A stretch of 64,000 nt of DNA from Desulfobacterales bacterium (GTDB lineage: Bacteria; Desulfobacterota; Desulfobacteria; Desulfobacterales; JAEINQ01), in contig JAEINQ010000008.1 of assembly GCA_016342285.1 (NCBI GenBank), forward strand, positions 1 through 64,000, in the 5' to 3' direction. Below, piece by piece: positions 94 through 17,950 of the stretch. Position numbers and translations under genes: made by a program. Numbering within the stretch: the first letter of the stretch is position 1; the number at the start of each line of letters is the position of its first letter. The notes beneath the pieces are model-generated. The model worked only from the letters and a program-made list of their open reading frames with translations, did no database searches and was not told where the DNA came from.

Positions 94-3000
94 CGGTTCA
101 TCCCCACGTTCGTGGGGAACTCTCCTTGGTGTCCTTCTCCCGCCGGTCGGGCAGCGGTTCATCCCCACGTTCGTGGGGAACTCGACTCTGCTGGCCGATT
201 GGGCTGACGATTTTTCGGTTCATCCCCACGTTCGTGGGGAACTCTCTCCATCGGCAGTGGCGCTATCCGTTCCGTGCGGTTCATCCCCACGTTCGTGGGG
301 AACTCATTGAGATCGAATGCACCAAGCGGTCCGGGTGCGGTTCATCCCCACGTTCGTGGGGAACTCTTCGGCATATTCGCGCTCGGCCTCATAAAGGGCG
401 GTTCATCCCCACGTTCGTGGGGAACTCTTGGCACCGTTGTGGGTGCTGATGATCCGGATCGGTTCATCCCCACGTTCGTGGGGAACTCGGGGTGGGGCGT
501 TTGATGCCTGGGACCATGGTCGGTTCATCCCCACGTTCGTGGGGAACTCGTGATACTGACCCGCGGCGGCAGCCGGGTACGCGGTTCATCCCCACGTTCG
601 TGGGGAACTCGCTGCGGGCGTCCTAGCGGTCGGCCAGGTACATCGGTTCATCCCCACGTTCGTGGGGAACTCTAAAAGTCTGGAATGAAACCTCACAAGG
701 GAACCGGTTCATCCCCACGTTCGTGGGGAACTCGCAAGGCGCTGCTCCGGGATCGTGCATTTCGGCGGTTCATCCCCACGTTCGTGGGGAACTCTTCAAC
801 CCCTTCAACTGATCGGAAAATTCGGCCGGTTCATCCCCACGTTCGTGGGGAACTCGGCATGGGACATTTTCACCAGTATCTCCGGATCGGTTCATCCCCA
901 CGTTCGTGGGGAACTCTCAAAGAATGTCAGACAACCATGTTTGATATGCGGTTCATCCCCACGTTCGTGGGGAACTCCCGTGGCCACGCAGAACGCGCAA
1001 ACCCTGCCGCGGTTCATCCCCACGTTCGTGGGGAACTCTGACTAAAGGCAAAATCTAAAGCGTAATACGCCGGTTCATCCCCACGTTCGTGGGGAACTCG
1101 CGCGATTGGCACCGCTGCCGGGGTCAATTCCCGGTTCATCCCCACGTTCGTGGGGAACTCGCGCCCAGGTATTGCCCCCCTATGGTCTTGGCCGGTTCAT
1201 CCCCACGTTCGTGGGGAACTCGACCGGAAATTTCCCGGCAGCGGCGAGGGAAACGGTTCATCCCCACGTTCGTGGGGAACTCGGAGGGCCGGCGGATCGT
1301 GGAGCGCACCACGGCGGTTCATCCCCACGTTCGTGGGGAACTCGTTCTCCACGTGCCACTTGTCAGCCGTGGTGGTCGGTTCATCCCCACGTTCGTGGGG
1401 AACTCGCGATGATGGCCCGGCGAAGGGCAGCGGCAATGCGGTTCATCCCCACGTTCGTGGGGAACTCGTCTGGTTCATATCGTCCTCGGTGGAATCAATC
1501 CGGTTCATCCCCACGTTCGTGGGGAACTCGATGGGTTTTTTGCTCGGATTTAGCATGTACGCGGTTCATCCCCACGTTCGTGGGGAACTCTACGCACAGG
1601 CCCTGGCCCAGAACATCGAGGCCGGTTCATCCCCACGTTCGTGGGGAACTCGGATTGACCACCGTTGCCGGGATCATGGGTCGCGGTTCATCCCCACGTT
1701 CGTGGGGAACTCATGACAGGGTGACGGTCCCGGCCTCCGCACGGCGGTTCATCCCCACGTTCGTGGGGAACTCTCACCCATCCAGCCATAAAAACCCCGA
1801 AAGTGCGGTTCATCCCCACGTTCGTGGGGAACTCAAACCGCTCTTGTCGCAACCCTGGGCATGGTCCGGTTCATCCCCACGTTCGTGGGGAACTCTAATA
1901 CGGGGAAGACCTCCGAGGGTTAAAATCTGGTTCATCCCCACGTTCGTGGGGAACTCATCAGGTGCGACAGGGCGTCTGTTTGGTTTTTCGGTTCATCCCC
2001 ACGTTCGTGGGGAACTCGAGAAGGCCCCTGAAAATTGGGTTGATGCCTGCGGTTCATCCCCACGTTCGTGGGGAACTCGGCTTACCATGAGCACCGGCTC
2101 GTTTTCGTGTCCGGTTCATCCCCACGTTCGTGGGGAACTCAGCCCAGAGGCAGAAACCCACTCGTTGACGAGCGGTTCATCCCCACGTTCGTGGGGAACT
2201 CTTGTCAAACCATGTCTCATGGGGTTTGAGACACGGTTCATCCCCACGTTCGTGGGGAACTCTTTGCGCCAATTTGTCAACCCTTGGCATGACTCGGTTC
2301 ATCCCCACGTTCGTGGGGAACTCGCCGGGGGCGGTTCCGACTGTGTTGCTTCTACCCGGTTCATCCCCACGTTCGTGGGGAACTCATGACAGGGTGACGG
2401 TCCCGGCCTCCGCACGGCGGTTCATCCCCACGTTCGTGGGGAACTCATAGACGGACGCTCATGAGCCTACATATCCACCGGTTCATCCCCACGTTCGTGG
2501 GGAACTCTCGGAGTCAGTAAACAAGCGGTCCACCAAGCACGGTTCATCCCCACGTTCGTGGGGAACTCAAGAGACGAACACCGGCTGCTCATCCATGAAG
2601 CGGTTCATCCCCACGTTCGTGGGGAACTCCGACTCGATTTCTTCTTTGTTGGCCTGGTCCGCGGTTCATCCCCACGTTCGTGGGGAACTCGCCCCAGGCG
2701 TTTTTAAAACCTTGACATCCCCCGGTTCATCCCCACGTTCGTGGGGAACTCAGATTCGTTTTAATTGAGCCATAACCACCATCCGGTTCATCCCCACGTT
2801 CGTGGGGAACTCCCAAAACGAACGAACTGGATACCAACTGACGACGGTTCATCCCCACGTTCGTGGGGAACTCTCGTCAACGCCACAAGGTCAACCGTCA
2901 ATGTGCGGTTCATCCCCACGTTCGTGGGGAACTCAGTCCCGACAATATCCGAAGGGGTTCAAATTGCGGTTCATCCCCACGTTCGTGGGGAACTCGTGTC

Positions 3001-5560
3001 AGCCGACCATGTTTCAAATGCTCTAGGCGGTTCATCCCCACGTTCGTGGGGAACTCATCACAGCCGACGCCGCGCAGTTGGTGATCGACGGTTCATCCCC
3101 ACGTTCGTGGGGAACTCTCGTATCCGGGGGGCATCCGGCCGCGCAACCGCGGTTCATCCCCACGTTCGTGGGGAACTCCGGGAATGATGGAATTGACGCA
3201 GTTCAGGAGGCGGTTCATCCCCACGTTCGTGGGGAACTCTTTTTAGACAATGGGCAATGCGCGGCATAGTCCGGTTCATCCCCACGTTCGTGGGGAACTC
3301 CTGTTTACCTGGGCCGCTGTATGGCATTACGTCGGTTCATCCCCACGTTCGTGGGGAACTCTACACAGCCGGGACCATTGCCGCCGCAATGGACCGGTTC
3401 ATCCCCACGTTCGTGGGGAACTCGAACCAGGGAACGGCAAAGCATGGAAACAACACGGTTCATCCCCACGTTCGTGGGGAACTCGTATTTTGAATATCTG
3501 GTTCAACCGGCCCGAACGGTTCATCCCCACGTTCGTGGGGAACTCGCGGTTGTCATTTCCCAGGGGCCGCCCGTTCAGCGGTTCATCCCCACGTTCGTGG
3601 GGAACTCACGGACGGCCGGCACGACGGGCACACGTTTTTCGGTTCATCCCCACGTTCGTGGGGAACTCTTGAGTTTGACGGCAATCCTGGTGATCAGGGC
3701 CGGTTCATCCCCACGTTCGTGGGGAACTCTCCGCCTATGCCGTGAAATCGGCCCCGCAACCCGGTTCATCCCCACGTTCGTGGGGAACTCTTCCCAAATT
3801 TACCCTAACCCCTAAGTTATTCGCGGTTCATCCCCACGTTCGTGGGGAACTCCTGGTTGACAATGTATAGGACAGTTTCCCGGCCGGTTCATCCCCACGT
3901 TCGTGGGGAACTCATGTAGGCCACGGCGACCACGGCCAAAACTCCCGGTTCATCCCCACGTTCGTGGGGAACTCTCTTTTGGCGGCTGGACGTACCCGAT
4001 GCCGTGCGGTTCATCCCCACGTTCGTGGGGAACTCTGCCTCATCGGCCATAGCGGCCAGCCTTGAGGCGGTTCATCCCCACGTTCGTGGGGAACTCGGGC
4101 GGCGGATCATCTAAATCAAGCTCGACGTCGGTTCATCCCCACGTTCGTGGGGAACTCGTGAGGCCACCCGCTCTGCGGGTGGAGACTCACGGTTCATCCC
4201 CACGTTCGTGGGGAACTCCTCCAAAATATAACATCGATGACGCGGCCTAACGGTTCATCCCCACGTTCGTGGGGAACTCGCTTTCAGGTGCCGCTGGAGC
4301 CTGCCTGCAATCGGTTCATCCCCACGTTCGTGGGGAACTCACTGCCCAACGGGTTGCGGCGATTCCGGACGGCGGTTCATCCCCACGTTCGTGGGGAACT
4401 CGGATTCACAGCCTGTACGGCTTTGTCAACGGCCGGTTCATCCCCACGTTCGTGGGGAACTCCACGCCCTGGCCGTTTCCTGGCCGAAAATCGTCGGTTC
4501 ATCCCCACGTTCGTGGGGAACTCTGGTCAACGCCACAAGGTCAACCGTCAACGTGCGGTTCATCCCCACGTTCGTGGGGAACTCTTCAAAGTCAAACCCA
4601 ACGCAATCATAAAGACCGGTTCATCCCCACGTTCGTGGGGAACTCCCCCACTGTCCATCCTGGCGTTGACGTTCCACCGGTTCATCCCCACGTTCGTGGG
4701 GAACTCTCGCGCCCTCAATTCGGTGTTGATCTGCTGTTCGGTTCATCCCCACGTTCGTGGGGAACTCATTCCCGGTGCCTCTGAACTCAACTGTTACGGC
4801 GGTTCATCCCCACGTTCGTGGGGAACTCGTAGAGGAAAAGGCCGAAGGGGTAAAAACAGGCGGTTCATCCCCACGTTCGTGGGGAACTCAGCGAAACGAC
4901 AAAAGGCCGATCCTTTCCGACCGGTTCATCCCCACGTTCGTGGGGAACTCTGACTCTTTGTTATCATGGCACCCGGTCGGGCCGGTTCATCCCCACGTTC
5001 GTGGGGAACTCAAGGCCCTGCGAAGATAAATGGCGCAGTTTAGCGGTTCATCCCCACGTTCGTGGGGAACTCTGGTTCTGACTCCTCAACTGACAGCAAT
5101 ACGTCGGTTCATCCCCACGTTCGTGGGGAACTCCTGACCAAGATGAACCTGAGCGTCGACGTGGTCGGTTCATCCCCACGTTCGTGGGGAACTCGTATAC
5201 GGGACCGGCAGCTCCACATTCCAATACGGTTCATCCCCACGTTCGTGGGGAACTCGGGGATCGGAGCCAGACGTTTGCCACCTCCGACGGTTCATCCCCA
5301 CGTTCGTGGGGAACTCCCAGGTCTCTATCTGGCTGACCTCGGTCGTGGCGGTTCATCCCCACGTTCGTGGGGAACTCCTCTAACAACATCTTCCCATGTA
5401 TGCTCGGAGCGGTTCATCCCCACGTTCGTGGGGAACTCGTTTGTCAGGCGGTTTAGATCGTGGGATATGGCGGTTCATCCCCACGTTCGTGGGGAACTCT
5501 GGTCCGCGTGGTCGGTGATCGTGCCGCCGGACGGTTCATCCCCACGTTCGTGGGGAACTC
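94..5560 (-). CRISPR. Type I-E CRISPR array, 90 repeats and 89 spacers
   Basis: A 29-bp repeat (plus-strand ends CGGTTCATCCCCACG and CGTGGGGAACTC) starts at 94 and recurs every 61 bp, nine times every 62 bp, to 5532-5560. That gives 90 repeats with 32- or 33-nt spacers. On the minus strand the repeat reads GAGTTCCCC...GGGGATGAACCG with a CCCCACG/CGTGGGG hairpin, the form of Escherichia coli type I-E repeats, so crRNA is transcribed on the minus strand like the cas genes. The leader and newest spacers are therefore at the right end, beside cas2. The repeats look uniform. The one at 1928 starts with T, and the leader-distal repeat at 94 is not visibly degenerate. One spacer is present twice (1713-1744 and 2386-2417). 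Two others differ at two positions (2874-2905 and 4524-4555). Confidence 0.99.
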
Positions 5561-5670: not shown

Positions 5671-6910
<1,240 letters not shown>

Positions 6911-6934
6911 GGGTAGAACCTTTTCCGGATAGTG

Positions 6935-7222
6935 TTATCGGTCTAAGGTTTCTTTCTTCTCGCCTGCGAACGAGTGCGATACAACCGCTCTGTAAAACCG
7001 CCTTCCTCCACGAATGCCTTTTTCAAAGACGCGGAGCTGCCGGTCAAGAAGGTAATTGGTCTGGTGGATCAAGCAGACCAGGGTGTTGGCGGCAACTTCA
7101 GGTGGGGCCTTTTCAATATAGGACTTGTAGACGATTTCCGCCATTTGGAAAGATTGGCGGTCCTGATAGCCTCCGTGGGCTGGAATAAGCCTGGGAGGCG
7201 CTTTATCATTAGTCTTGCCAAC
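6935..7222 (-). pseudogene. Internally deleted four-helix-bundle suffix-domain gene
   Basis: One reading frame carries two ends of a known family of roughly 200 residues (four helix bundle / 'suffix domain' proteins). The N-terminal signature (RLIPAHGGYQDRQSFQMAEIVY) is joined directly to the C-terminal suffix (APPEVAANTLVCLIHQTNYL, then LDRQLRVFEKG). The middle bundle helices, more than 100 residues, are missing. The N-terminal part has no clear start codon; a methionine at 7144 falls inside the signature. I read it as a decayed gene carrying an in-frame deletion. It lies in the same direction as cas1 and 24 bp upstream of it. A small expressed relic starting at 7144 (69 residues) cannot be excluded. 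Confidence 0.7.
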
Positions 7223-7273
7223 GTCCTCCTTTCGCTTTCAGTTGCACATGGCGATTATGGCCAAAACGCCATC

Positions 7274-7329
7274 TTGACGACCAGCGGATGAATATATATA
7301 ATTTAATCTCAAATTATATATATCAGGAG
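7274..7329 (+). promoter_or_regulatory. vapBC promoter with palindromic operator and RBS
   Basis: TTGACG (7274-7279) and TATAAT (7297-7302) are separated by 17 bp, a near-ideal sigma-70 promoter. The -10 lies in a perfect 13-bp inverted repeat (7292-7304 and 7311-7323, 6-bp loop). An AGGAG ribosome site follows at 7325-7329. A palindrome over the -10 is the usual place for VapB-VapC autorepression, so the operator role is inferred from position. Confidence 0.8.
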
Positions 7330-7335
7330 CCCCCC

Positions 7336-7551
7336 ATGAAAACCCTCTTGGATATCGATGACGAGTTGATGGCACAATTGCTCCAGGCGGCCGGCACCAC
7401 GGTCAAGAAAAAAGCGGTGGTCACAGCCATTGAATCTTTTCTGGAAATGAAAAAGCACGAAAAACTGGCCGATCTGATCGGAGCCTACGAATTCGCCTAT
7501 ACGCAAAAAGAATTGGAGCAGATGCGGGCAGATGGACAAGGTCATCATTGA
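7336..7551 (+). CDS. vapB: VapB-type antitoxin
   Basis: This 71-residue protein (start MKTLLDIDDELMAQLLQAAG) has the ribbon-helix-helix-like N-terminus of the DUF2191/VapB antitoxins. Its helical C-terminus (LIGAYEFAYTQKELEQMRAD) should occupy the toxin groove. The ATG at 7336 is chosen because AGGAG lies just upstream; a longer frame from 7288 runs through the operator palindrome. The gene overlaps the PIN toxin by 20 nt, typical of co-translated pairs. It stands on the strand opposite to the cas genes, between cas6e and cas1. Confidence 0.88.
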   Translation: MKTLLDIDDELMAQLLQAAGTTVKKKAVVTAIESFLEMKKHEKLADLIGAYEFAYTQKELEQMRADGQGHH

Positions 7552-7936
7552 CACCTCGATCTGGATCGAAGCCTTCCGGCCCCAAGGCGAAAAGGCCACG
7601 GCCGACAGGGTCAAAGGCCTCGTACTCGACAACCGGGTGTTGCTGCCTGGGCTCATCAAGGCCGAACTGCTCCGCAGCGCAAAATCCCAAGCCGAATTCA
7701 ATCAACTAAAAGACCTGCTCAGCGGCCTGAACTACCTGCCGACTCCGGAACCCTTTTGGGACGACCTATCCTCATTTTCCTTCAGCCTGTTTCGAAAAGG
7801 CCTGGCCATCCCCCTGGTCGATACCGCCATCGCCCTTCTCTGCCTAGAAAACAACGCGCCCCTATTTCACCGGGACCATCACTTTGACCTGATCACAAAA
7901 GTAACCGACCTGCAAACCATCGACCTCACCCGCTAA
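7532..7936 (+). CDS. vapC: VapC-type PIN-domain toxin
   Basis: This 134-residue PIN-domain ribonuclease, usually a tRNA or rRNA cleaver, has acidic active-site positions in VIIDTSIWIEAF, in LIKAELL, in PLVDTAIALL and in FHRDHHFD. The order and length fit VapC. It is paired with the upstream antitoxin by a 20-nt overlap. Its TAA (7934-7936) overlaps the oppositely oriented cas6e stop (7933-7935), so the two genes converge with no space for a separate terminator. The cognate RNA target cannot be told from sequence. Confidence 0.9.
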   Translation: MDKVIIDTSIWIEAFRPQGEKATADRVKGLVLDNRVLLPGLIKAELLRSAKSQAEFNQLKDLLSGLNYLPTPEPFWDDLSSFSFSLFRKGLAIPLVDTAIALLCLENNAPLFHRDHHFDLITKVTDLQTIDLTR

Positions 7937-8601
7937 ACCCGTCGAACCAGCATCAGTCCGCAGCCGAAGGCCTTGGAGCGCCCCAACCCGTTGAGAAGGG
8001 GGTTCATGAATGCCTCCGGTTCAGAAACCAAAAGTCGCCCCGAGAAATCCAAGCTCCCAAAATGAATGGGTGCTTGATTGCTACCCCTCCGAAGGGTCAA
8101 AAGCCTATGGTTTTCAACGTTTAGGGAATCAACGCAGAAACCATTGTCTTCCCCTTGCCGGCGAATCCAGTTACCTCCGGCCTCATCGATTAACTGCGCC
8201 TTTCCGGGGAGTTGGATGTCTTCTTTTTTTTTATTGTCGACGAGGGCTTCGACAATATCCCGTCGCCGTCTCTTATTGCTGTGGTCATCGGTTTTTGTTG
8301 TAATGACTGCATTGGCTCTCAGTTTGAAAAAAAAACGATCACCCGGTCTAATTTCCGGGCGGTATGTTTTTGTGGAAATTCGGATTCCTTCCAAAGTGTT
8401 TTCCGGCTTGCGTGCTGAAAGCAGATAATAAAAAGGCCAGTCGTTTCCATCCTCTTTTCGATAGAGAAAGTCACGGGAATGCCCGTCATCTTTCGGGAAT
8501 ATCTTCCACATCCACTGGTGTTCCGTGTAAAGCCCACCCTTAATCAGCCGCAGCACATTTTCGGGTTGATCTGGCAACAGATCAATTTTGCTGAAAAACA
8601 T
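7933..8601 (-). CDS. cas6e: CRISPR pre-crRNA endoribonuclease Cas6e
   Basis: This 222-residue protein (CasE/Cse3 family) cuts within the repeat hairpin and stays bound to the crRNA 3' handle in Cascade. Near the N-terminus H28 in GGLYTEHQWMWKIFP fits the catalytic histidine of the family (H26 in Thermus). The C-terminal glycine-rich loop (NGLGRSKAFGCGLMLVRRV) is characteristic. Its ATG shares one base with the cas5e stop, indicating translational coupling. It is the last gene of the interference operon before the vapBC insertion. Confidence 0.96.
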   Translation of the reverse strand: MFFSKIDLLPDQPENVLRLIKGGLYTEHQWMWKIFPKDDGHSRDFLYRKEDGNDWPFYYLLSARKPENTLEGIRISTKTYRPEIRPGDRFFFKLRANAVITTKTDDHSNKRRRRDIVEALVDNKKKEDIQLPGKAQLIDEAGGNWIRRQGEDNGFCVDSLNVENHRLLTLRRGSNQAPIHFGSLDFSGRLLVSEPEAFMNPLLNGLGRSKAFGCGLMLVRRV

Positions 8602-9320
8602 TAGTTCGGCTCCTCTTGACCAAGATGGGTATATTCAATACGGCTGGCAAATTGCCAGCGGTTACGGCTAATGGGCTGGTCATAACGGGGAACATGAAAA
8701 TGCGCATTCATGCCAATATTTTCAGCCTCTTCCCAAAAATAACGGATCGGCCCAGTTGCCAACCCCATGGCTTCTGTTGCCACCGGGAAACTGTCCAGAG
8801 CGGCCTTAAGGGTATCCGATGGAATGATCACTGGATTCAGCATCATTGCCAGCGGACAGGATTTGCGCCCCAAATAGAGATGGTATGCGGGTTGCCGCAA
8901 AGCGTCCCTTAGCTGTTCCATACCAAACGGGGTTTGCCCTTCCGACAGCCAGAGGGCGATAACAGAAAATGAATCCTGCCGGTACTCACGAGAGGAAAGG
9001 ATGGTGCCAAGCTTGGTTTCAGACAACTCATCCCGGCGCGTGTGTAGATGACAAGAATTTTTACTTTCCGGCGGGACCTGGGTCGTATGGTAATCACGAA
9101 GGATCAGGCCGCCGGAAAACAGTTTGATGCCGAAATGGCAGGCATCGCTCAAACGGCAATGCTGATCTTCATCTTCCCTCGAAATTCCGATTGAGGCGGC
9201 CACCAGGCCCAACAAAGCGGAACGGCTGGGGTGGTCGCTACTTGGCCGCTCCTGGCCCACGGCCTGGTCCCCCCAGGCAGCCATTGGCGCATATAACTGA
9301 AAAACAAGGTAGTCTATCAT
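8601..9320 (-). CDS. cas5e: Cascade subunit Cas5e (CasD)
   Basis: This 239-residue RAMP protein holds the 5' handle of crRNA in Cascade. The N-terminal strand (YLVFQLYAPMAAWGD) and following ERPSSDHPSRSALLGLVAASIG match the CasD family, and the length is usual. A later stretch (PAYHLYLGRKSCPLAMML) is the conserved second family block. It starts 2 nt after the cas7e stop and overlaps cas6e by one base, so all are in one polycistron. Confidence 0.96.
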   Translation of the reverse strand: MIDYLVFQLYAPMAAWGDQAVGQERPSSDHPSRSALLGLVAASIGISREDEDQHCRLSDACHFGIKLFSGGLILRDYHTTQVPPESKNSCHLHTRRDELSETKLGTILSSREYRQDSFSVIALWLSEGQTPFGMEQLRDALRQPAYHLYLGRKSCPLAMMLNPVIIPSDTLKAALDSFPVATEAMGLATGPIRYFWEEAENIGMNAHFHVPRYDQPISRNRWQFASRIEYTHLGQEEPN

Positions 9321-9322
9321 GG

Positions 9323-10372
9323 CTACTCCGTTACGAACCGGATGATTTCCTCCAGTTTCCCCTCGCCGGTCAGGGCATTGAATTTCACGGAAGCATCAGC
9401 GCATTGCCCGTACACCCGGTCAAAATTTTCTTGCTGGGTTTCCAATGCCCGGATCGCCAGGGCGAGATGGTCCTCGCCTCTAACGGGTTTGAGAAAAGCT
9501 GCGGACAAGGTGCGGGGTTGTTGCGCACCCTTTTCAGCCAGCAGGTATGAGGTGTAGGCCCTTGAAGCAAAACTGTTTTGTTTTCCGGTGGGTGCGACTT
9601 TGGTAGCGCATTCCACAAGAGCGGCAAGGGTTTTGTTGGTCAGTTCCAGATCTTTACTCCGATCTTCATTCAGGTTTTTTATCAACAGACTTTTATTGAT
9701 ACACAGGTAGATATAGAAAACACCAGAGCCAAAACCCAGCTCTCCCATATGCGCAGAACCTGAATCTTCAACATGCTTGTTAAGGTCATCCACCGCAGTA
9801 AAGAAATCGTCGTCTATTTTAACCTGATTGACCGTAATCGCATGGGCCACCTGAACAGCGGCCTCCACATTATAATTAGGGCTGGAGGCCAGCATCCTTC
9901 CGAACAATGCAATGTCAACGGATTTCGGACGTTGGCATAAAAACAACAGTTCATCTTCTTCAGGCCCCCGATTTTCAGATACCAGCGTATCCACCAGGGC
10001 CATGACCTTTTGTTTTTCTTCCGGTGCTATATGGGCCAACTGCTCAATTTCAAGTGCGTTCTTTCCCTTGAGTTTTCCGAAATGCGCGGCGATTTTGGAC
10101 GCCCATTCTGCCGCTGATTTCTCGTTCACCCCATTTTCAGTCAATTGTTTGAAAACATCAGTACCCAACAGCTTTGTTCGCTCCCCCTTCCATTCATCCA
10201 GGGCATCCTTGAACAGTTCCGAAGTCCGCCAGGCGCGTTTTAAACTCTGGGAAGAGATCCTTAAGCGTTCAACCCCGCCCATGATAGCGGTTTTCGGGCG
10301 CCCGAGATCGTCCCGATTAAGGTTCGACGGGGGATAAACGGTGAGCAGATGTAATTGAATAAAATGGCTCAT
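9323..10372 (-). CDS. cas7e: Cascade backbone subunit Cas7e (CasC)
   Basis: This 349-residue RAMP protein is expected in six copies along the crRNA spacer. The N-terminus (FIQLHLLTVYPPSNLNRDD, then GRPKTAIMGGVERLRISSQS and KRAWR) is diagnostic for the CasC/Cse4 family. Another conserved block reads VDIALFGRMLASSPNYNVEA. The start codon overlaps the cse2 stop by 4 nt (ATGA). Length agrees with other type I-E Cas7 proteins and no damage is visible. Confidence 0.97.
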   Translation of the reverse strand: MSHFIQLHLLTVYPPSNLNRDDLGRPKTAIMGGVERLRISSQSLKRAWRTSELFKDALDEWKGERTKLLGTDVFKQLTENGVNEKSAAEWASKIAAHFGKLKGKNALEIEQLAHIAPEEKQKVMALVDTLVSENRGPEEDELLFLCQRPKSVDIALFGRMLASSPNYNVEAAVQVAHAITVNQVKIDDDFFTAVDDLNKHVEDSGSAHMGELGFGSGVFYIYLCINKSLLIKNLNEDRSKDLELTNKTLAALVECATKVAPTGKQNSFASRAYTSYLLAEKGAQQPRTLSAAFLKPVRGEDHLALAIRALETQQENFDRVYGQCADASVKFNALTGEGKLEEIIRFVTE

Positions 10373-10947
10373 GATTTTGACTCCTTTTGGTATTTAAAAA
10401 CTTCCTCGTAGTACGCCCGAGCCCAACGAAATTTCCAAGAGCGGTTGGCTGCATACCGTTCCGGCGTTTTGCGTTCAAGATGCCAGTGCAGGATCCCGTC
10501 CGCCAGCAAAATTGGATCGGTTCCGCCGTTTAAAAAGGTTAAAGCCCTGCGAAGATTTCGATAAAGATCGTCTGCAGTTTCACTCGATAACAATTGTTGG
10601 AACCGAAGTTCGCTATAAATGGGACTCTTCCCGCCCTCTTTGGCAGATCCCAACTGGGTAGGTAAATGACTGTTCGTCTTTTGTTCAAGATGGGAAAGTA
10701 GTCCTGCAACCGTCGCCAGTCCCATCAGATGCTGGTTTGTCCAGTAGGGCAAGGATTTGCTCAACCGATGGAATCCCGGTTGTGTGATCACCTCCAAGGG
10801 ACTGTTGCAACGCCTCAGATGCGCCCGATCCCCTCTATTGTCTTTAAGCGCTTCCCACCAATTCAATATCGATTTTCGGTCGTCTTTTTTATCCTTGTGA
10901 AACGCGTAATAATAAGGTTGCCGGCTTCCCTTTTCTGGCTGTTCCAT
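10369..10947 (-). CDS. cse2: Cascade small subunit Cse2 (CasB)
   Basis: This 192-residue, mostly helical small subunit forms a dimer along the Cascade belly and stabilises the R-loop. Conserved pieces are WWEALKDNRGDRAHLRRC near the N-terminus and FRWARAYYEEVF near the C-terminus. It starts 9 bp after the cas8e stop and overlaps cas7e by 4 nt, in the normal I-E gene order. There is nothing unusual in length. Confidence 0.95.
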   Translation of the reverse strand: MEQPEKGSRQPYYYAFHKDKKDDRKSILNWWEALKDNRGDRAHLRRCNSPLEVITQPGFHRLSKSLPYWTNQHLMGLATVAGLLSHLEQKTNSHLPTQLGSAKEGGKSPIYSELRFQQLLSSETADDLYRNLRRALTFLNGGTDPILLADGILHWHLERKTPERYAANRSWKFRWARAYYEEVFKYQKESKS

Positions 10948-10956
10948 GACATTTTC

Positions 10957-12525
10957 CTATGCCGCCTTAAGCGCCTTTATGGAGTTTCTGTTGGTAAGCC
11001 CATTGTTAAGTTCGGATCTGGCCTTGACCAGTCGCTTCATCCCACCGCCTCGTTTTTCACCGCTCAAAGCAAATTTATCGAAGGTCTCCAAGGCAGTGGC
11101 CATGATGGTTGATCGCCATTTGTCCAAAACGGTTTTTTCCGAATCCGCATGTAAAGTTATCGTTTTTAATGCATTGTAAAATTGCATTTCAGTTCCCTGC
11201 CAAAAATTGGCATCAACAAATGAAAGGTCTCCTTTTGCATCCTTCGGCCTGCTAAACCAAGCTTGCTTTATAGAGTATCGAAGCGAAGAAACGGCATCGC
11301 TGGCCGCGCCGATCATCTGATTTACCAAGTGGCTGATGTCATCGATTCTGTCGACGGGCAGGTGAAATACCGGCATGGTCGATTCGTACCAGCAACGGGC
11401 CTTCATGTTGTCCATGTCGTAGCCGAACACCCACAACCGCGCATCCTGATCGCCATCAATCAGGTCCTGGCGGCTGTCCAGGTAGATTTGCACAATCAAT
11501 GCAGGGGACCGATGCCTTTTCCCATCATTGGCCACCAGGCCGAGCCAGTGGCGATAGCCGAGTCCGCCGGGTTGGGCCTTGATGGATATCGGTTCTTTTT
11601 CGGGATCGATCACATAGGGGGTCAGGGGATGAATCCATGCCCCTGCGTAGTTTGTTCCGTGCTTTTTGGTATGAAAGGTTCGTACCTGGGTGTCCGCAAT
11701 TTCTCCTGACAGGCCACAGACAGTTTGAAGGCCACGTTCCCAATGCAGCCGTATCCGGCGGGGCATGGACCAATACATCTGAAGCGGGTGCCCGTGCTGC
11801 GGGTAGGTTTCCATCCCCTTTTTTCCGCTGGTGCGGGTGTTTCCCATCCAAGGGAATATGTCCGACTCCTCGCTCAATTCCATATTGCCGGTCAGGTCCT
11901 CCAACTCTTCCTGGGTGAGCACATTGAGCCAGAGCTGGTGCCATAGTGTATGGTGTTTTGAATCATCCGGGGGCAACACCATGGTGGTGAGGGGCCCGCC
12001 GCCGCGCAGGCTGACCCGTATGCCGGCCCCTCCGGCAGGCGAATTAATCTGCAAGGCAAACAATGCCATTGCAGCCCAATAGGCTGAAATCCTTTCGATT
12101 TGTCCCCGTTTGACAAAATGATCCGTGTTGTGGCTTTCAGCATTCGCACCCGGCGTTTCGATTAACAATACGGAAATAGATTTTTCAATACCTTCGGGTA
12201 GATCAAAATCCTGCATGAATGCCGGGCCATTTTCGGCGTCAATTTCAAAGGCATGGCCCACCGAATGAAATGCTTCGCGAAGTGAATCGGGTGTTGGCGG
12301 GGTTCTCCAGTATTTGAGCCATTCATCTTCATCTTCAGGCAAAAATGCTGTTTGCAGCACACCGACAAGGAATTGATAGATGGCCCCCTTGAGATCTGCC
12401 CTGGGCACCTTGACACCAACGATTGGATTTGGGGTTAAGTTTTCTGTAATATTGGCGGGGGAACTCTTTACAACCGTACCGTCTTGTCGGATTACAGGCA
12501 TCCAGGAATCAGACAGCAGATTCAT
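10957..12525 (-). CDS. cas8e: Cascade large subunit Cas8e (Cse1/CasA)
   Basis: This 522-residue large subunit recognises the PAM and recruits Cas3. The N-terminus MNLLSDSWMPVIRQDG and the block YWAAMALFALQINSPAGGAG, with GIRVSLRGGGPLTTMV following, are typical of CasA. Another family block reads FPWMGNTRTS. An AGAGGAT ribosome site precedes the ATG. It lies 44 bp downstream of the TOPRIM-like gene rather than directly after cas3, which is the usual arrangement, because two extra genes are inserted there. Confidence 0.97.
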   Translation of the reverse strand: MNLLSDSWMPVIRQDGTVVKSSPANITENLTPNPIVGVKVPRADLKGAIYQFLVGVLQTAFLPEDEDEWLKYWRTPPTPDSLREAFHSVGHAFEIDAENGPAFMQDFDLPEGIEKSISVLLIETPGANAESHNTDHFVKRGQIERISAYWAAMALFALQINSPAGGAGIRVSLRGGGPLTTMVLPPDDSKHHTLWHQLWLNVLTQEELEDLTGNMELSEESDIFPWMGNTRTSGKKGMETYPQHGHPLQMYWSMPRRIRLHWERGLQTVCGLSGEIADTQVRTFHTKKHGTNYAGAWIHPLTPYVIDPEKEPISIKAQPGGLGYRHWLGLVANDGKRHRSPALIVQIYLDSRQDLIDGDQDARLWVFGYDMDNMKARCWYESTMPVFHLPVDRIDDISHLVNQMIGAASDAVSSLRYSIKQAWFSRPKDAKGDLSFVDANFWQGTEMQFYNALKTITLHADSEKTVLDKWRSTIMATALETFDKFALSGEKRGGGMKRLVKARSELNNGLTNRNSIKALKAA

Positions 12526-12569: not shown

Positions 12570-13166
12570 TTACACAGTTTCTCCCAATAATTTTAGTTTA
12601 TCCACAAAATAACTGGCACTGGGGCAGTTTTCATGAGTTGCGGCCTCTTGCACCTCAAAACCACACCGGTGAATGAATTTTCTCGCAAAAGGTACTTTTC
12701 TACCGGGTCCACGTTGGCTGGATGAACTTTTTCCCAGCATCCGCAACCGTTCCCATGGCATTCCGTCGGTTTCTTCAGGTAGTTCTTCAAAATAGGAGCC
12801 GTCCCTTAACCATTTGCGCATGGCTTTTGTATCAGCCAAAAACCAGGATTCAAGGGCTTTGCGGGCGATGACGACCAGATCGATATTTTCGGTCCCGATA
12901 ATTTCCTTTCGCACTGATATGCAGGGCGCACACACTTCCGGGTCAAGATCTGCAAGCACAACCAGTTTTTCCGGTTGGGCCTGAATCCTCAATTTATTAA
13001 CGTAACTCGTAATTTTTGTGCTGCACATTTCACCTTTTCCGCCCGTATCGACGACCGGTTCCAATAACTCTAAACGACACGCTTTCTCCAGCCATGTTCT
13101 AAACGACGGGCTCTTGATCAATATGGCTTCCGATGCCCCCTCCACGACGAACCCGACTGTTACCAC
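12570..13166 (-). CDS. TOPRIM-like DUF4276-family protein
   Basis: This 198-residue protein begins VVTVGFVVEGASEAIL, a TOPRIM-like first strand with conserved glutamate. It has a DxD motif in VVLADLDPEV and the family block VIARKALESWFLADTKAM. These features fit the DUF4276 group, predicted metal-dependent phosphotransfer or nuclease proteins usually encoded beside an ABC-type ATPase. The chosen start is GTG at 13166, preceded by GGGGGAGG at good spacing and overlapping the ATPase stop by 7 nt; an ATG at 13199 lies deeper in the ATPase gene. It is co-directional with cas3 and cas8e, so it is probably co-expressed. Catalysis is inferred from family resemblance only. Confidence 0.8.
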   Translation of the reverse strand: MVTVGFVVEGASEAILIKSPSFRTWLEKACRLELLEPVVDTGGKGEMCSTKITSYVNKLRIQAQPEKLVVLADLDPEVCAPCISVRKEIIGTENIDLVVIARKALESWFLADTKAMRKWLRDGSYFEELPEETDGMPWERLRMLGKSSSSQRGPGRKVPFARKFIHRCGFEVQEAATHENCPSASYFVDKLKLLGETV

Positions 13167-14305
13167 GGCAATCCTCCCCCGAGTAAATTGGATAACCACG
13201 CCTCATCCATACCCAATGGGTGCAAATCGTCTTGTTTTAAATTGCCATCGGAGCCCAGCTTCATCTGGGTTCGGCCATTCAATTTATCAACCAGCCAAAA
13301 CTCATCCAAATTTAACTGCCGCACGACAGGCTCACTGTGACTCGTCAGCCATACCATGTTCCGGGTCGATGATTTTTCACGAATCATGTTGATCAGTTCG
13401 CTGATGGCTTTAGGATGGAGCCCCCTTTCAGGCTCCTCAATCATTGCCAGTCCATATTGGCTTGGCGTATCCAACACTGCCACGAGCAGGCATAGTACAA
13501 AAATTGTCCCATCAGAAACCATCCGCGCGGGAAAAGGATCGCCCGTGCCCGTTTCCTTAAACAGGGCTTCGGTATTCCCCGTCAAAGCTTGTTGTTTTGT
13601 GCTAATCTTTTCAAGTCCAGGAACAACGGCCTCCATCCACTCCGAAATCTCCTCGCGAAGTTGTTTATCTTTTTCCAATCGTTTCAGAACACTCGGAAGG
13701 TTTCGGCCGTTGTTTTGTAGTACATAAGAGCTTTGATCGGACCGGTCTTCACTGGAAGCGGTTTTTGGTTCAATCCGGTAGAGTCGAATATTTCTCAGAA
13801 ATTCTACAACGGGGATATTTGAAAAATTTAAGAGGCCGGAATTGTCCGGAGAAAAACTGTCTACTGCTTTTTCTTCATTATCGATAAAAAATGGTCCGTG
13901 CCACCGTCGATCCAATCGGCACTGTCCGTCAACAATTAGTTTTTCCTCTATCGCTGCTTTTTTATTTAGGTCGTGAAGCTTTAATCGGTAGTTATATCGT
14001 TTTGTTAAAGCATCCTTTTTTTCCATTAAAGGAAGCGTGCAGTTGATTTCAAACTCAAATCTTTCTGAATAGCCGGTATATCGTTTCACACAGCGAATCG
14101 TTTCATATCCGCCATGGGCGGCCAGTGCATCTTGGACACCTCTACGGATGAACCGGTTGACAAAATCCAGTGCATCAAAAAAATTGCTTTTTCCGCAACC
14201 GTTGGCGCCGACAAAAGCCGAAAAGCAGCCAACTTTATTTAGTTTCAGGGTGTCGATGCTTTTAAAGTTTGCGATTTTTATATGATGAACAACGGGATCG
14301 CCCAT
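13160..14305 (-). CDS. ABC-type ATPase of the AAA_21/OLD-like class
   Basis: This 381-residue protein starts MGDPVVHHIKIANFKSIDTL, the 'F-K-S' strand of SMC/RecF/OLD-like ATPases. It has a Walker A motif GANGCGKS (33-40), a signature-like block ARMVSDGTIFVLCLL, a Walker B stretch LAMIEEPERGLHP and an H-loop WLTSHSEPVV. No nuclease, CARF or membrane domain is apparent. It is followed with overlap by the TOPRIM-like gene. The arrangement resembles two-gene anti-phage ATPase/TOPRIM systems such as OLD or PARIS in general design, though the partner family is different. AGGTGG lies just before the ATG. The gene lies 60 bp downstream of cas3. Confidence 0.88.
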   Translation of the reverse strand: MGDPVVHHIKIANFKSIDTLKLNKVGCFSAFVGANGCGKSNFFDALDFVNRFIRRGVQDALAAHGGYETIRCVKRYTGYSERFEFEINCTLPLMEKKDALTKRYNYRLKLHDLNKKAAIEEKLIVDGQCRLDRRWHGPFFIDNEEKAVDSFSPDNSGLLNFSNIPVVEFLRNIRLYRIEPKTASSEDRSDQSSYVLQNNGRNLPSVLKRLEKDKQLREEISEWMEAVVPGLEKISTKQQALTGNTEALFKETGTGDPFPARMVSDGTIFVLCLLVAVLDTPSQYGLAMIEEPERGLHPKAISELINMIREKSSTRNMVWLTSHSEPVVRQLNLDEFWLVDKLNGRTQMKLGSDGNLKQDDLHPLGMDEAWLSNLLGGGLPW

Positions 14306-14365: not shown

Positions 14366-17128
14366 TCAACTAATTAAACCTTTTTTGCCGCAATATGCAA
14401 CTTTTATTTCTTTGCTATTTATGTCTTCAACGGTTGCCTGCCACTGCCCGTCTGCGCTTAGGCTCAACGGCAGAATAAAACTGAATTCATTGAATCGCTC
14501 CGTTTGTTCGAGAAGACGCACCAAGGCCTCTGATAAGCCCGGGGCCTTATCGGATGAAAGGCGATTCATTTTTTCTTTGGAAACATTCAGGCTGCTTAAA
14601 TCCCAGGGGTAATCACCGTGCGCCACCCAAGGAAGCAGCCTGTTGCTTTCCCATCGTGCCAGGTAGGCGGTGTGGGTCTCCTCACCCGTCCGGGTGGGAA
14701 AGACGGCATCGTCATGCCATTTTTCGCCCTGAGCATACCCTTTCTTCCATTTCAAAGCATTGAATCTTGCCATATCCGATTTTCCTATTTCCTCGCCTTC
14801 GGCTTCACCGCTCAATGCCTGAAGGGCAACGGGGATCTCCTCCTCACCCCCGTACACATACTCAATCAGCTCACGGGCGTCATCCGGCATTTTCCAGCCC
14901 TGGTTACGATTTAGAATCTGGCTCGTGAGCCATAGAATGCCTGTATGCGGATATACATAACATGCCTTGGGGAATATCGATTTATACCAGTCATCTGCGG
15001 GTTCATCCGTGATTTGCGGAGACAGGACGTATAGGATAGGCGCGCTCCGCTGGTCAGCGGAATCAAAGGGCAACGGATCGCCTTGTGCATTGCGTAGATG
15101 CCGTTTAAGCCTGCCGGCACGTTGAATGAGCAAATCGATGGGGGCCAGGTCGGAAACCAATACATCAAAATCCAGATCCAGGGATTGTTCCACCACCTGG
15201 GTCGCCACCAGAACCCGACTCTGACGAATCGGATGCGTGGATCCGCTGCCAAAAAGACGCATTACTTCTTTTTCGATGGAAAGCCGGTCATGTAAAGCAT
15301 ATCGGCTATGAAACAGATGCAGGCGATCATCGGCCATCCACTTGCAATCCGAGATCAATTGCCAGGCGTCCCGGGCATCCGTCACAGTATTGCGGATCCA
15401 GCAGACGCATTGGCCTTTCTCCACAGCCTCACGGATTTTCTCGACAACCTGGTCCTCGCTGTGGAGGAACCGAGCATGTACCCTGCGTTCGACAGCTGGA
15501 CGGGTCTGTATCGGCATTTCTGATAGATGCCCTGCCATCGTGTGTGTCAGTAAAGGGTAGGCTTCCTTCTCAATAACTTGGGGAGCGCCCGTTAACGGCT
15601 GCAAAAACGCATCAATCAGTTTCTGCCGTTGGGCTTTTGCAAGGGTGGCTGATAACAGAATAACGCTTCCACCCAACCCAGCCTGGAATTCGATAAGCCG
15701 GTTCAGCAACTCTCCGGTGTATGCGTCGTAGGCATGCACCTCATCCAGGATTAAAACCTTATTTGCCAACCCGAATAAGCGCAAAGATTGGTGACGGGCG
15801 GGAAGAACACCCAGTAGCGCCTGATCAATCGTTCCAACCCCCAAATCCGCAAGAAGCGCTTTTTTACGATGGTCGGCCAGCCAACGGTTACACTCGGCTG
15901 AGGTGGTTTCATCCTTCTTTTCATTGTCGGCTTTGTCTGACGGCTGTGCCATCAAAAAAGACTTTTGGAAGATTTCCGATAAATGCCGGGCCCCATGGCT
16001 GAGCACCATGCTAGGGCGGCTGCCTTCTCGGTATAAACAACGGTACGACTCGACCATCCGCTCATACATGGCGTTGGCGGTTGCCATTGTCGGCAGCCCG
16101 AGATAGATTCCCTGGCCCTGCCCGCCGGCCAGCAGGCGATGAGCCAGCATGATGGCGGCCTCTGTTTTACCGGCGCCGGTAACGTCTTCCAAAATCAAAA
16201 GCTGCGGCGTGCCGGCCATTGGCAGTTCACAGCATTTCATTTGCAGAGGGGTCCGGTGTTTGATTTTTGGGAAAAGGCCGTCAAACTTTTTTTCAGGTGC
16301 TGTTTCGGCAGGTAAAATGCCGGATTGAAAAACCGCTTGCCTGGCCCCGGGAATTGCATGGTCTGTCCAATACTGATCAAGCGGCATTCTTTGGGAACAA
16401 GGATGGAAAATCTCTCTGTCTGACCCCAGCCAGTCGCAAAGCACTGAAAACCCGGCCATTAACCAGCTGGCGTGCTTGTAGTTTTTCCGTGGACATTCGC
16501 TCTGGCACTCTCTGAGCATCGAGTCAAAGTCCGGGTTGAAGAAAATAAAACATTCCGTAACAAAAGAAATGGCACTTTCAACATCATGCGCTCTGAAATG
16601 ATCTTTAATCCGGATTTTGCTCGTGCCCACACGCGATTTAGGCGGCTGCCCATGATGACCGGTGACCGTTTGAACCCACGGCTTCAGCACATTACGGAAA
16701 ACGCTTTTTCCTGCTGGTTTATAGCCGGAGGCCAACCCGAATCCTTTGGTTTGGAAATGCTGCTCCAACCCGCCTTTGTTATTCCATAGGACATACCCGA
16801 GGTTATCATGGCGGACGCTATAGTTGGTTTTTAGAATCTTGTCGCCAGGCCATAGCCGGTTTCTCAGAATTGGAACCAATTGTTGAAAGCTTTCGGCAAA
16901 TTTGCCTAAATCATGCAAGGCAAGGAAAAAAATCACAATATTTTTTAATTCCTTTTTTTCGATACCGCTGATATTTTTAAAGCTTTCCACAAGGAAAGGA
17001 TTGTTGTCCAACTGAATTTTCCCCACCGCAGCCACATCCAGGCAATGGTAAGGGAGCAGGTGAAAACTGCCTTCCTTGGAGGTTTTTCCCCAGTATTTGA
17101 AATACGAAGGAACGTTGTCTTCATTCAT
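14366..17128 (-). CDS. cas3: CRISPR-associated helicase-nuclease Cas3
   Basis: This 920-residue effector nicks and degrades target DNA recruited by Cascade. The HD nuclease domain comes first (YHCLDVAAVGK, FLALHDLGKFAESF). The superfamily 2 helicase has Walker A in LEDVTGAGKTEAAIML, a DEVH box in KVLILDEVHAYD, and motif VI in LLIQRAGRLKRH. The start MNEDNVPSYFKYWGKTS matches the usual Cas3 N-terminus, which favours ATG 17128 over the upstream methionine at 17212. A good GGAGG lies about 20 nt upstream and appears to serve a five-codon frame (MSGRL) whose TGA overlaps this ATG. It is the first gene of the minus-strand cas cluster. Confidence 0.97.
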   Translation of the reverse strand: MNEDNVPSYFKYWGKTSKEGSFHLLPYHCLDVAAVGKIQLDNNPFLVESFKNISGIEKKELKNIVIFFLALHDLGKFAESFQQLVPILRNRLWPGDKILKTNYSVRHDNLGYVLWNNKGGLEQHFQTKGFGLASGYKPAGKSVFRNVLKPWVQTVTGHHGQPPKSRVGTSKIRIKDHFRAHDVESAISFVTECFIFFNPDFDSMLRECQSECPRKNYKHASWLMAGFSVLCDWLGSDREIFHPCSQRMPLDQYWTDHAIPGARQAVFQSGILPAETAPEKKFDGLFPKIKHRTPLQMKCCELPMAGTPQLLILEDVTGAGKTEAAIMLAHRLLAGGQGQGIYLGLPTMATANAMYERMVESYRCLYREGSRPSMVLSHGARHLSEIFQKSFLMAQPSDKADNEKKDETTSAECNRWLADHRKKALLADLGVGTIDQALLGVLPARHQSLRLFGLANKVLILDEVHAYDAYTGELLNRLIEFQAGLGGSVILLSATLAKAQRQKLIDAFLQPLTGAPQVIEKEAYPLLTHTMAGHLSEMPIQTRPAVERRVHARFLHSEDQVVEKIREAVEKGQCVCWIRNTVTDARDAWQLISDCKWMADDRLHLFHSRYALHDRLSIEKEVMRLFGSGSTHPIRQSRVLVATQVVEQSLDLDFDVLVSDLAPIDLLIQRAGRLKRHLRNAQGDPLPFDSADQRSAPILYVLSPQITDEPADDWYKSIFPKACYVYPHTGILWLTSQILNRNQGWKMPDDARELIEYVYGGEEEIPVALQALSGEAEGEEIGKSDMARFNALKWKKGYAQGEKWHDDAVFPTRTGEETHTAYLARWESNRLLPWVAHGDYPWDLSSLNVSKEKMNRLSSDKAPGLSEALVRLLEQTERFNEFSFILPLSLSADGQWQATVEDINSKEIKVAYCGKKGLIS

Positions 17129-17269
17129 AAACGACCGCTCATCAGTTTCCTCCGAAAAAGATCCGGCAATTGGTGAATTCGAAAATATCCAATACCAAGT
17201 TTTCCATAACACGCGGCTTTGTCAGATCAGGACAATTCATTAAATTTTTCTTTAAAATTTTATATGGGC

Positions 17270-17304
17270 TTGCAATCGGTTAATGTGTACAATATGGTTG
17301 TACA
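17270..17304 (+). promoter_or_regulatory. Promoter/operator of second TA module
   Basis: A TTGCAA (17270-17275) lies 17 bp from TATGGT (17293-17298). A perfect 7-bp inverted repeat (17286-17292 and 17298-17304, TGTACAA / TTGTACA) covers the -10, as expected for a Phd-family operator. It lies in the divergent region shared with cas3. The repressor role is inferred. Confidence 0.6.
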
Positions 17305-17327
17305 AAAACATTGAGCAGGAGAAGGCC

Positions 17328-17558
17328 ATGGAATCAGTCGGTGTCAGTCAGTTTCGGGAGAAGCTTCCTTTTTTTATCGAAAAGGTCAAAAAGGGGGCCA
17401 CCATTACCATCACTTCCCGGGGCAGAGAGGTCGCACGGCTTGTGCCGGCTGAAGATGAGCGCGCTGCCGCACGCCAGGCCCTGGCGCGTCTGGCGCAGAC
17501 CGCCGAGGTGGGCGATGTGCTGGCGCCCATCAGCGCCGACTGGGACGCCTTGGCATGA
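17328..17558 (+). CDS. Phd/YefM-family antitoxin
   Basis: This 76-residue antitoxin begins MESVGVSQFREKLPFFIEKV, then KKGATITITSRGREVARLVP, the standard Phd fold that binds operator DNA. Its acidic C-terminus (AEVGDVLAPISADWDALA) would block the toxin. ATG 17328 has an AGGAGAAGG ribosome site; a longer frame from 17283 crosses the palindromic operator. It overlaps the toxin by 4 nt and is transcribed away from cas3. Confidence 0.88.
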   Translation: MESVGVSQFREKLPFFIEKVKKGATITITSRGREVARLVPAEDERAAARQALARLAQTAEVGDVLAPISADWDALA

Positions 17559-17950
17559 TTGTGGTAGACACTCACATTGTCGTCTGGGACGCCTTGCTGC
17601 CCGATCGACTTTCGCCCAAGGCCAAAAACGCCCTGGCCCGGGCCAATGAGGGCGAAGGGATCATCCTTTGCGACATAACCCTGTGGGAAATCGCCATGCT
17701 CATGGCGGCCAGACGCCTGAAAGTCGAATCCCCCTATTCGGAATTCATCGCCCATCTGCTCAAGAGCAACACGTACCACCTCCATTCCATCACGCCGGCC
17801 GTTGCTGAATTGTCGGCCCACCTGTTCGGCGATGCCCATAAGGATCCGGCCGACCGCATCATCGCCGCAACCGCCATTATTGCCCGGTGCCCCCTCGTGA
17901 CCGCCGATGCCTTCCTGCGTCGGTCCGACCAGATGCAAACCATTTGGTAG
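17555..17950 (+). CDS. PIN-domain toxin (VapC-like)
   Basis: This 131-residue PIN-domain ribonuclease starts MIVVDTHIVVWDALLPD, with further acidic active-site positions in CDITLWEIAML, in HKDPADRIIAATAI and in PLVTADAFL. It starts within the antitoxin stop (4-nt overlap), so the pair is translationally coupled. The Phd-plus-PIN combination is a common type II toxin-antitoxin pairing. Together with the first module it makes two PIN toxins within 11 kb, both oriented against the cas genes. Confidence 0.9.
   Translation: MIVVDTHIVVWDALLPDRLSPKAKNALARANEGEGIILCDITLWEIAMLMAARRLKVESPYSEFIAHLLKSNTYHLHSITPAVAELSAHLFGDAHKDPADRIIAATAIIARCPLVTADAFLRRSDQMQTIW

Follow-up and report, generated by a model that had tools for sequence, protein, structure and literature searches.

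Small defence modules embedded in larger defence operons have already been described for BREX and Hma. The HECs are a named set discovered via guilt-by-embedding, of which HEC-06 was named as validated whereas HEC-01 was not so named (PMC12988326). Modules composed of an OLD-ABC protein and a TOPRIM protein within BREX have been described as backup effectors (PMC12839542). PARIS (AriA/AriB) also occurs embedded; its AriA protein detects the phage anti-restriction protein Ocr, and then activates AriB to cleave tRNA (PMC12839542). For the PARIS embedded in BREX of Salmonella, no measurable defence was observed in the published test (PMC11341690), and therefore embedding is no guarantee of activity. 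A killing module may also be tied to a cas operon, as in CreTA, an RNA toxin that Cascade keeps silent by way of an ectopic repeat (PMC10097628, PMC9458426).

Here we describe a two-gene module of this kind hosted by a type I-E CRISPR-Cas operon. The window analysed is a stretch of 64,000 nucleotides from a Desulfobacterales bacterium. In the literature searched, with preprints outside that search, no published type I-E operon carrying this pair was found, and no mention of DUF4276 was found. One Vibrio case (PMC6360697) was set aside as a precedent, because the system concerned is type I-F and not I-E.

Organization of the type I-E operon

A complete type I-E operon is located on the minus strand of the window, and its cas3, cas8e, cse2, cas7, cas5, cas6e, cas1, and cas2 genes were all confirmed by profile. 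A sequence-only reading of this DNA had placed two genes between cas3 and cas8e on the cas strand, and both were found there, in the order of cas3, ABC-type ATPase gene, DUF4276-like gene, and cas8e. The gaps of 60 nt between cas3 and the ATPase gene and of 44 nt between the DUF4276-like gene and cas8e were also as described. The features of the locus are as follows.

94..5560, no strand given: CRISPR array of 89 perfect 29-nt type I-E repeats (CGGTTCATCCCCACGTTCGTGGGGAACTC)
5671..10947, minus strand: remaining type I-E genes cse2, cas7e, cas5e, cas6e, cas1, and cas2 (profiles)
10957..12525, minus strand: cas8e/cse1, downstream neighbour (Pfam CRISPR_Cse1, 391 bits)
12570..13166, minus strand: putative TOPRIM-like nuclease, a DUF4276-like protein of HEC-01B type, 198 aa with GTG 13166 as start (PADLOC, Shine-Dalgarno sequence, AF2)
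13160..13166, minus strand: GTGGTAA start/stop overlap (sequence; the E. coli homologues overlap too, 8010 vs 8016 in L006)
13160..14305, minus strand: HEC-01A-type ABC ATPase of 381 aa, AAA_21 (Pfam, PADLOC, AF2/Foldseek)
14366..17212, minus strand: cas3 (longest ORF), upstream neighbour (PADLOC Cas3e, 675 bits)

The longest open reading frame of the DUF4276-like gene begins at 13199. The gene start is most likely GTG 13166 instead, because this codon is preceded at 6 nt by a Shine-Dalgarno sequence, GGGGAGG, corresponds to the start of the E. coli homologue, and overlaps with the stop codon of the ATPase gene within GTGGTAA. The two genes thus overlap as proposed, but by 7 nt rather than about 40 nt. 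This arrangement of the ATPase stop and the partner start suggests translational coupling.

No terminator-like site was found in the cas3/ATPase gap or in the DUF4276/cas8e gap, and the frequency of promoter-like sites in both gaps was no higher than in shuffled sequences. The common strand, the spacing, and the terminator-free gaps are consistent with transcription of the pair together with cas3 and cas8e. The GC content was 45–48% for the inserted pair, 50–52% for cas3 and cas8e, and 56% for the whole window.

Toxin–antitoxin genes were also observed at this locus. A VapB-like/PIN (VapC) pair on the strand opposite to the cas genes interrupts this operon between cas6e and cas1 (7288–7936, plus strand), and a second antitoxin/PIN-like pair, recognized by eye, is divergent from cas3 (17283–17950, plus strand). 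The operon is therefore both flanked and interrupted by toxin–antitoxin modules. The same genome carries a second, divergent type I-E operon (contig C36, L084), in which cas3 and cas8e are 23 nt apart with no insert.

Identification of the pair as HEC-01

The ATPase gene product matched Pfam AAA_21 with 100 bits and the PADLOC model HEC-01A (PDLC04176) with 422 bits, the latter covering positions 3–371 of 371. All the motifs of an ABC-type ATPase were located, in support of the initial description: Walker A GANGCGKS (33–40), the signature SDGT (264–267), Walker B IEEPE (289–293), and the switch histidine His323. Each is conserved in all or nearly all of the 23–26 homologues aligned. The AF2 model (pLDDT 89) gave Foldseek matches to PtuA of retrons and Septu, SMC/Rad50 heads, and GajA. 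The protein is an ABC ATPase of the AAA_21/OLD-like type.

The partner protein matched the PADLOC model HEC-01B (PDLC04191) with 233 bits. The DUF4276-like block recognized from the sequence falls below threshold for the window protein itself (23.5 bits against the Pfam cut-off of 30.2), while some relatives score above the cut-off. Almost no variation was seen at E9 (in VEG) and D73, and little at E13 inside the close subfamily. The window protein has D at position 75, where most relatives have E, their motif thus being mostly D-x-E. In the AF2 model (pLDDT 92.9), the elements are ordered as b1-E9-a-b2-a-b3-D73xD75-a-b4, with E9 at the end of b1 and D73xD75 at the end of b3, which is the TOPRIM order in a Rossmann-like arrangement. 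The TOPRIM-like Glu and DxD of the sequence-only reading are thus borne out in motif order and topology. Searches for structural similarity did not add a significant TOPRIM match. By Foldseek, no match below E 0.001 was obtained for the partner model against PDB and viral models, and the match to OLD nuclease 6p74 had E 0.36, above this significance line. Alignment with DUF3226 by hhalign gave E 5e-4, yet with a probability of 31%; the OLD-like_TOPRIM profile was matched by one relative at a sub-threshold level, and the PDB sequence search with the partner gave nothing or chance matches only. Motif order and topology together make a TOPRIM-like nuclease plausible for the partner.

For both genes, the HEC-01 models of PADLOC exceeded every other family by a wide margin, and the relatives that were tested likewise assigned to HEC-01. 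Both models of HEC-01 (Hma-embedded candidate 1, PADLOC-DB) were matched at full length by adjacent genes in the same order. By these profile matches, the two genes are the HEC-01 pair, a candidate anti-phage family. Unlike HEC-01 as catalogued, the window pair has the cas genes of a type I-E system as its host operon. The literature searched contained no antiviral test of this subfamily.

Several other systems resemble the pair. PARIS shares the two-gene composition of an ABC ATPase and a putative TOPRIM nuclease, but was rejected because the partner is of DUF4276/HEC-01B type with no AriB or DUF4435 match, and the ATPase scored 422 bits with HEC-01A against 104 with AriA. In Gabija and OLD, the ABC ATPase domain is related (profile E about 2e-14 to GajA) but is fused with TOPRIM in one chain, accompanied by a helicase in Gabija; the window contains neither arrangement, its two genes being separate and neighboured by cas3 and cas8e. 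The similarity of the ATPase to MAD3 of MADS reached 101.5 bits against a cut-off of 420 bits, and the neighbours are cas genes with no MAD genes. One distantly related locus (L004) additionally gave a match to mad4. AbiL was rejected with only 98 bits for AbiLi and no match for AbiLii. The OLD-ABC/TOPRIM backup effectors noted above have the same architecture and the same embedding logic; their hosts are BREX and BREX-related systems, whereas the host here is CRISPR-Cas I-E. The window pair also differs from CreTA in having no ectopic CRISPR repeat nearby, since the best match was 17/29, within the range of 16–20 for shuffled sequences.

Distribution of the pair

By one-pass scanning of 84,980 prokaryote species genomes, we identified 26 close genomic relatives, of which the full-length ones share 32–57% identity. 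The pairing is constant, with the ATPase partner present in all 26, and none of the 26 is located in a cas operon. Four were found inside BREX, between pglX and pglZ (L019, L021), between brxC and pglX (L026), or directly upstream of pglZ (L018). Three others (L015–L017) are in type I restriction–modification loci, where their neighbours are hsdS or hsdR-like and RhuM/hsdM-like genes. A further two lie next to jetC-type genes of Wadjet, recognized by profile for L025 and by resemblance for L027. The remaining relatives include standalone pairs. In E. coli, the pair was detected in 26 of 5,426 complete genomes, always between pglX and pglZ of BREX. The cas8e gene was present in only three of 25 pair-bearing genomes, and in those three the pair is located elsewhere. 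As to the placement pattern that the sequence-only reading had named as pointing to a chance insertion, the relatives are indeed unrelated in position to cas genes, but their placement is not random overall, since the pair favours the interior of other defence operons.

In the tree of ATPase sequences, BREX and restriction–modification contexts were intermixed, and the window sequence was nearest to that of a Thiotrichales MAG, from another phylum, without firm support. This pattern, together with the lower GC content of the pair, fits horizontal acquisition. A profile search of the phylum of the window gave only distant DUF4276 relatives; in genomes that have these as well as type I-E loci, the two are on separate contigs or no less than about 100 kb apart. 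An ATPase gene with a truncated DUF4276 partner was found on a viral contig (L033, 6544–8114) by using a two-sequence alignment as query, while a single-protein query of viral contigs gave nothing. In a Thiomargarita MAG (L014, 5034–15028), tandem pairs of ATPase and DUF3226 (TOPRIM-like) genes surround an HEC-01 pair.

The cas3–cas8e junction in other type I-E operons

The distance between cas3 and cas8e was measured for 57 other operons in which cas8e follows cas3, taken from 395 genomes of the phylum of the window (38 with cas8e), the pair-bearing genomes, and a sample of 398 Pseudomonadota genomes. The HEC-01 pair was found at this junction in none of the 57. The distance was 42 nt or less in 45 operons and more than 180 nt in 12. 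In the closest type I-E operons (L085, L087), cas3 and cas8e abut within 6 nt, and therefore the pair in the window is an insertion. Among the 12 operons with the wider spacing, four had toxin or Abi modules at the junction, which is four of all 57 (about 7%), or five of 58 (9%) with the window included. The four are as follows.

L090, 8394–10135: AbiEi/AbiEii
L131, 6617–8387: Fic protein
L138, 4144–6984: HigB/HTH pair (HigBA) and two further genes
L142, 1787–2339: BrnT/CopG pair

In one more of the 12 (L137), a DUF29 protein is encoded at the junction. The window is one case of a junction that occasionally receives killing modules. An apparent CRISPR array, judged by repeat-like peptides in the open reading frames, was observed between cas3 and cas8e of L147, likewise one of the 12.

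Discussion

What is new at this locus is the host operon; the embedded module is of a known kind, and the locus is not a new CRISPR subtype, because relatives of the pair sit inside BREX and type I restriction operons. The idea that the pair defines a type I-E variant as a fixed accessory was rejected, since the pair recurs neither in the 57 other type I-E operons nor in the cas context of any of the 26 relatives.

We consider it probable that an HEC-01 module was acquired horizontally, entered the operon at the cas3–cas8e junction, and is transcribed with the cas genes, acting as a stand-alone abortive-infection layer. The locus is a single case in which a portable defence pair has become embedded, and the pair is most likely an abortive-infection layer co-expressed with the cas genes. 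After clean insertion, the pair would be expressed from the cas operon. By analogy with PARIS, the ABC ATPase may serve as both sensor and scaffold that holds or activates the TOPRIM-like partner; sensing is likely the role of the ATPase, and the small protein is likely the effector. The signal sensed could be a phage DNA structure or an anti-defence protein, upon which the partner would cut nucleic acid and the cell would stop. The pair might thus form a PARIS-like abortive-infection layer behind CRISPR, independent of Cascade, for which the main contribution of the operon would be that the genes are expressed and inherited together. The trigger is unlikely to be tied to Cascade, because close relatives either serve BREX and restriction–modification loci or are found alone; a trigger common to these settings, for instance an inhibitor that mimics DNA, is possible. 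The sequence-only reading of an ATPase/TOPRIM-type defence pair holds as far as the HEC-01 assignment and the relatives in defence operons are concerned, with its TOPRIM part being plausible.

Among the alternatives, a neutral chance insertion, tolerated because transcription is unbroken and without joint function, would account for the single instance and for the absence of the pair from all other type I-E operons sampled. Relatives of the pair are, however, repeatedly located within other defence operons, the cas3–cas8e junction repeatedly gains toxin or Abi genes, and both genes of the window are intact with all motifs conserved, and we regard such a passenger as unlikely. Another explanation, raised in outline by the sequence-only reading, is a guard dedicated to type I-E. 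Such a guard would respond when Cascade or Cas3 is lost or is inhibited, an anti-CRISPR being one example of an inhibitor, and would then kill the cell or arrest it. The position of the pair inside the operon, the precedents of CRISPR-Cas guards (CreTA; PMC10097628, PMC9458426), the response of PARIS to an anti-restriction protein (PMC12839542), and the toxin or Abi modules at the same junction of four other type I-E operons are in its favour. The BREX, restriction–modification, and standalone settings of relatives argue against a Cascade-specific trigger, and the dedicated link proposed is not supported, given the lack of the pair in all 57 other type I-E operons and of cas operons around all 26 relatives, as well as the lack of a CreTA-like repeat; this explanation is quite unlikely. 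No more probable is its broader form, in which a protein guard fired by inhibition of Cascade or Cas3 is one of several alternative modules (AbiE, Fic, HigBA, BrnT/CopG, and HEC-01) recruited to the cas3–cas8e junction.

The pair might instead be an accessory part of the type I-E effector, its nuclease acting as an extra interference enzyme on DNA opened by Cascade and Cas3. The same operon and strand as the cas genes, and two proteins that look intact and well folded in the models, agree with this idea, but the pair does not co-occur with type I-E operons elsewhere and the same pair is found in unrelated systems, which leaves it very improbable. If the modules at the cas3–cas8e junction were triggered by inhibition of CRISPR, type I systems would have a general backup based on proteins. 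Otherwise, the preferred one-off embedding of HEC-01 still illustrates how portable defence cassettes can use a large defence operon for expression.

Cargo genes were also observed at the cas6e–cas1 junction of other type I-E operons. They encode RhuM/Fic (L096), Fic (L068), Bro-N (L065, L085, L098), an addiction-module antidote (L092), and a 23S rRNA-IVP protein (L070).
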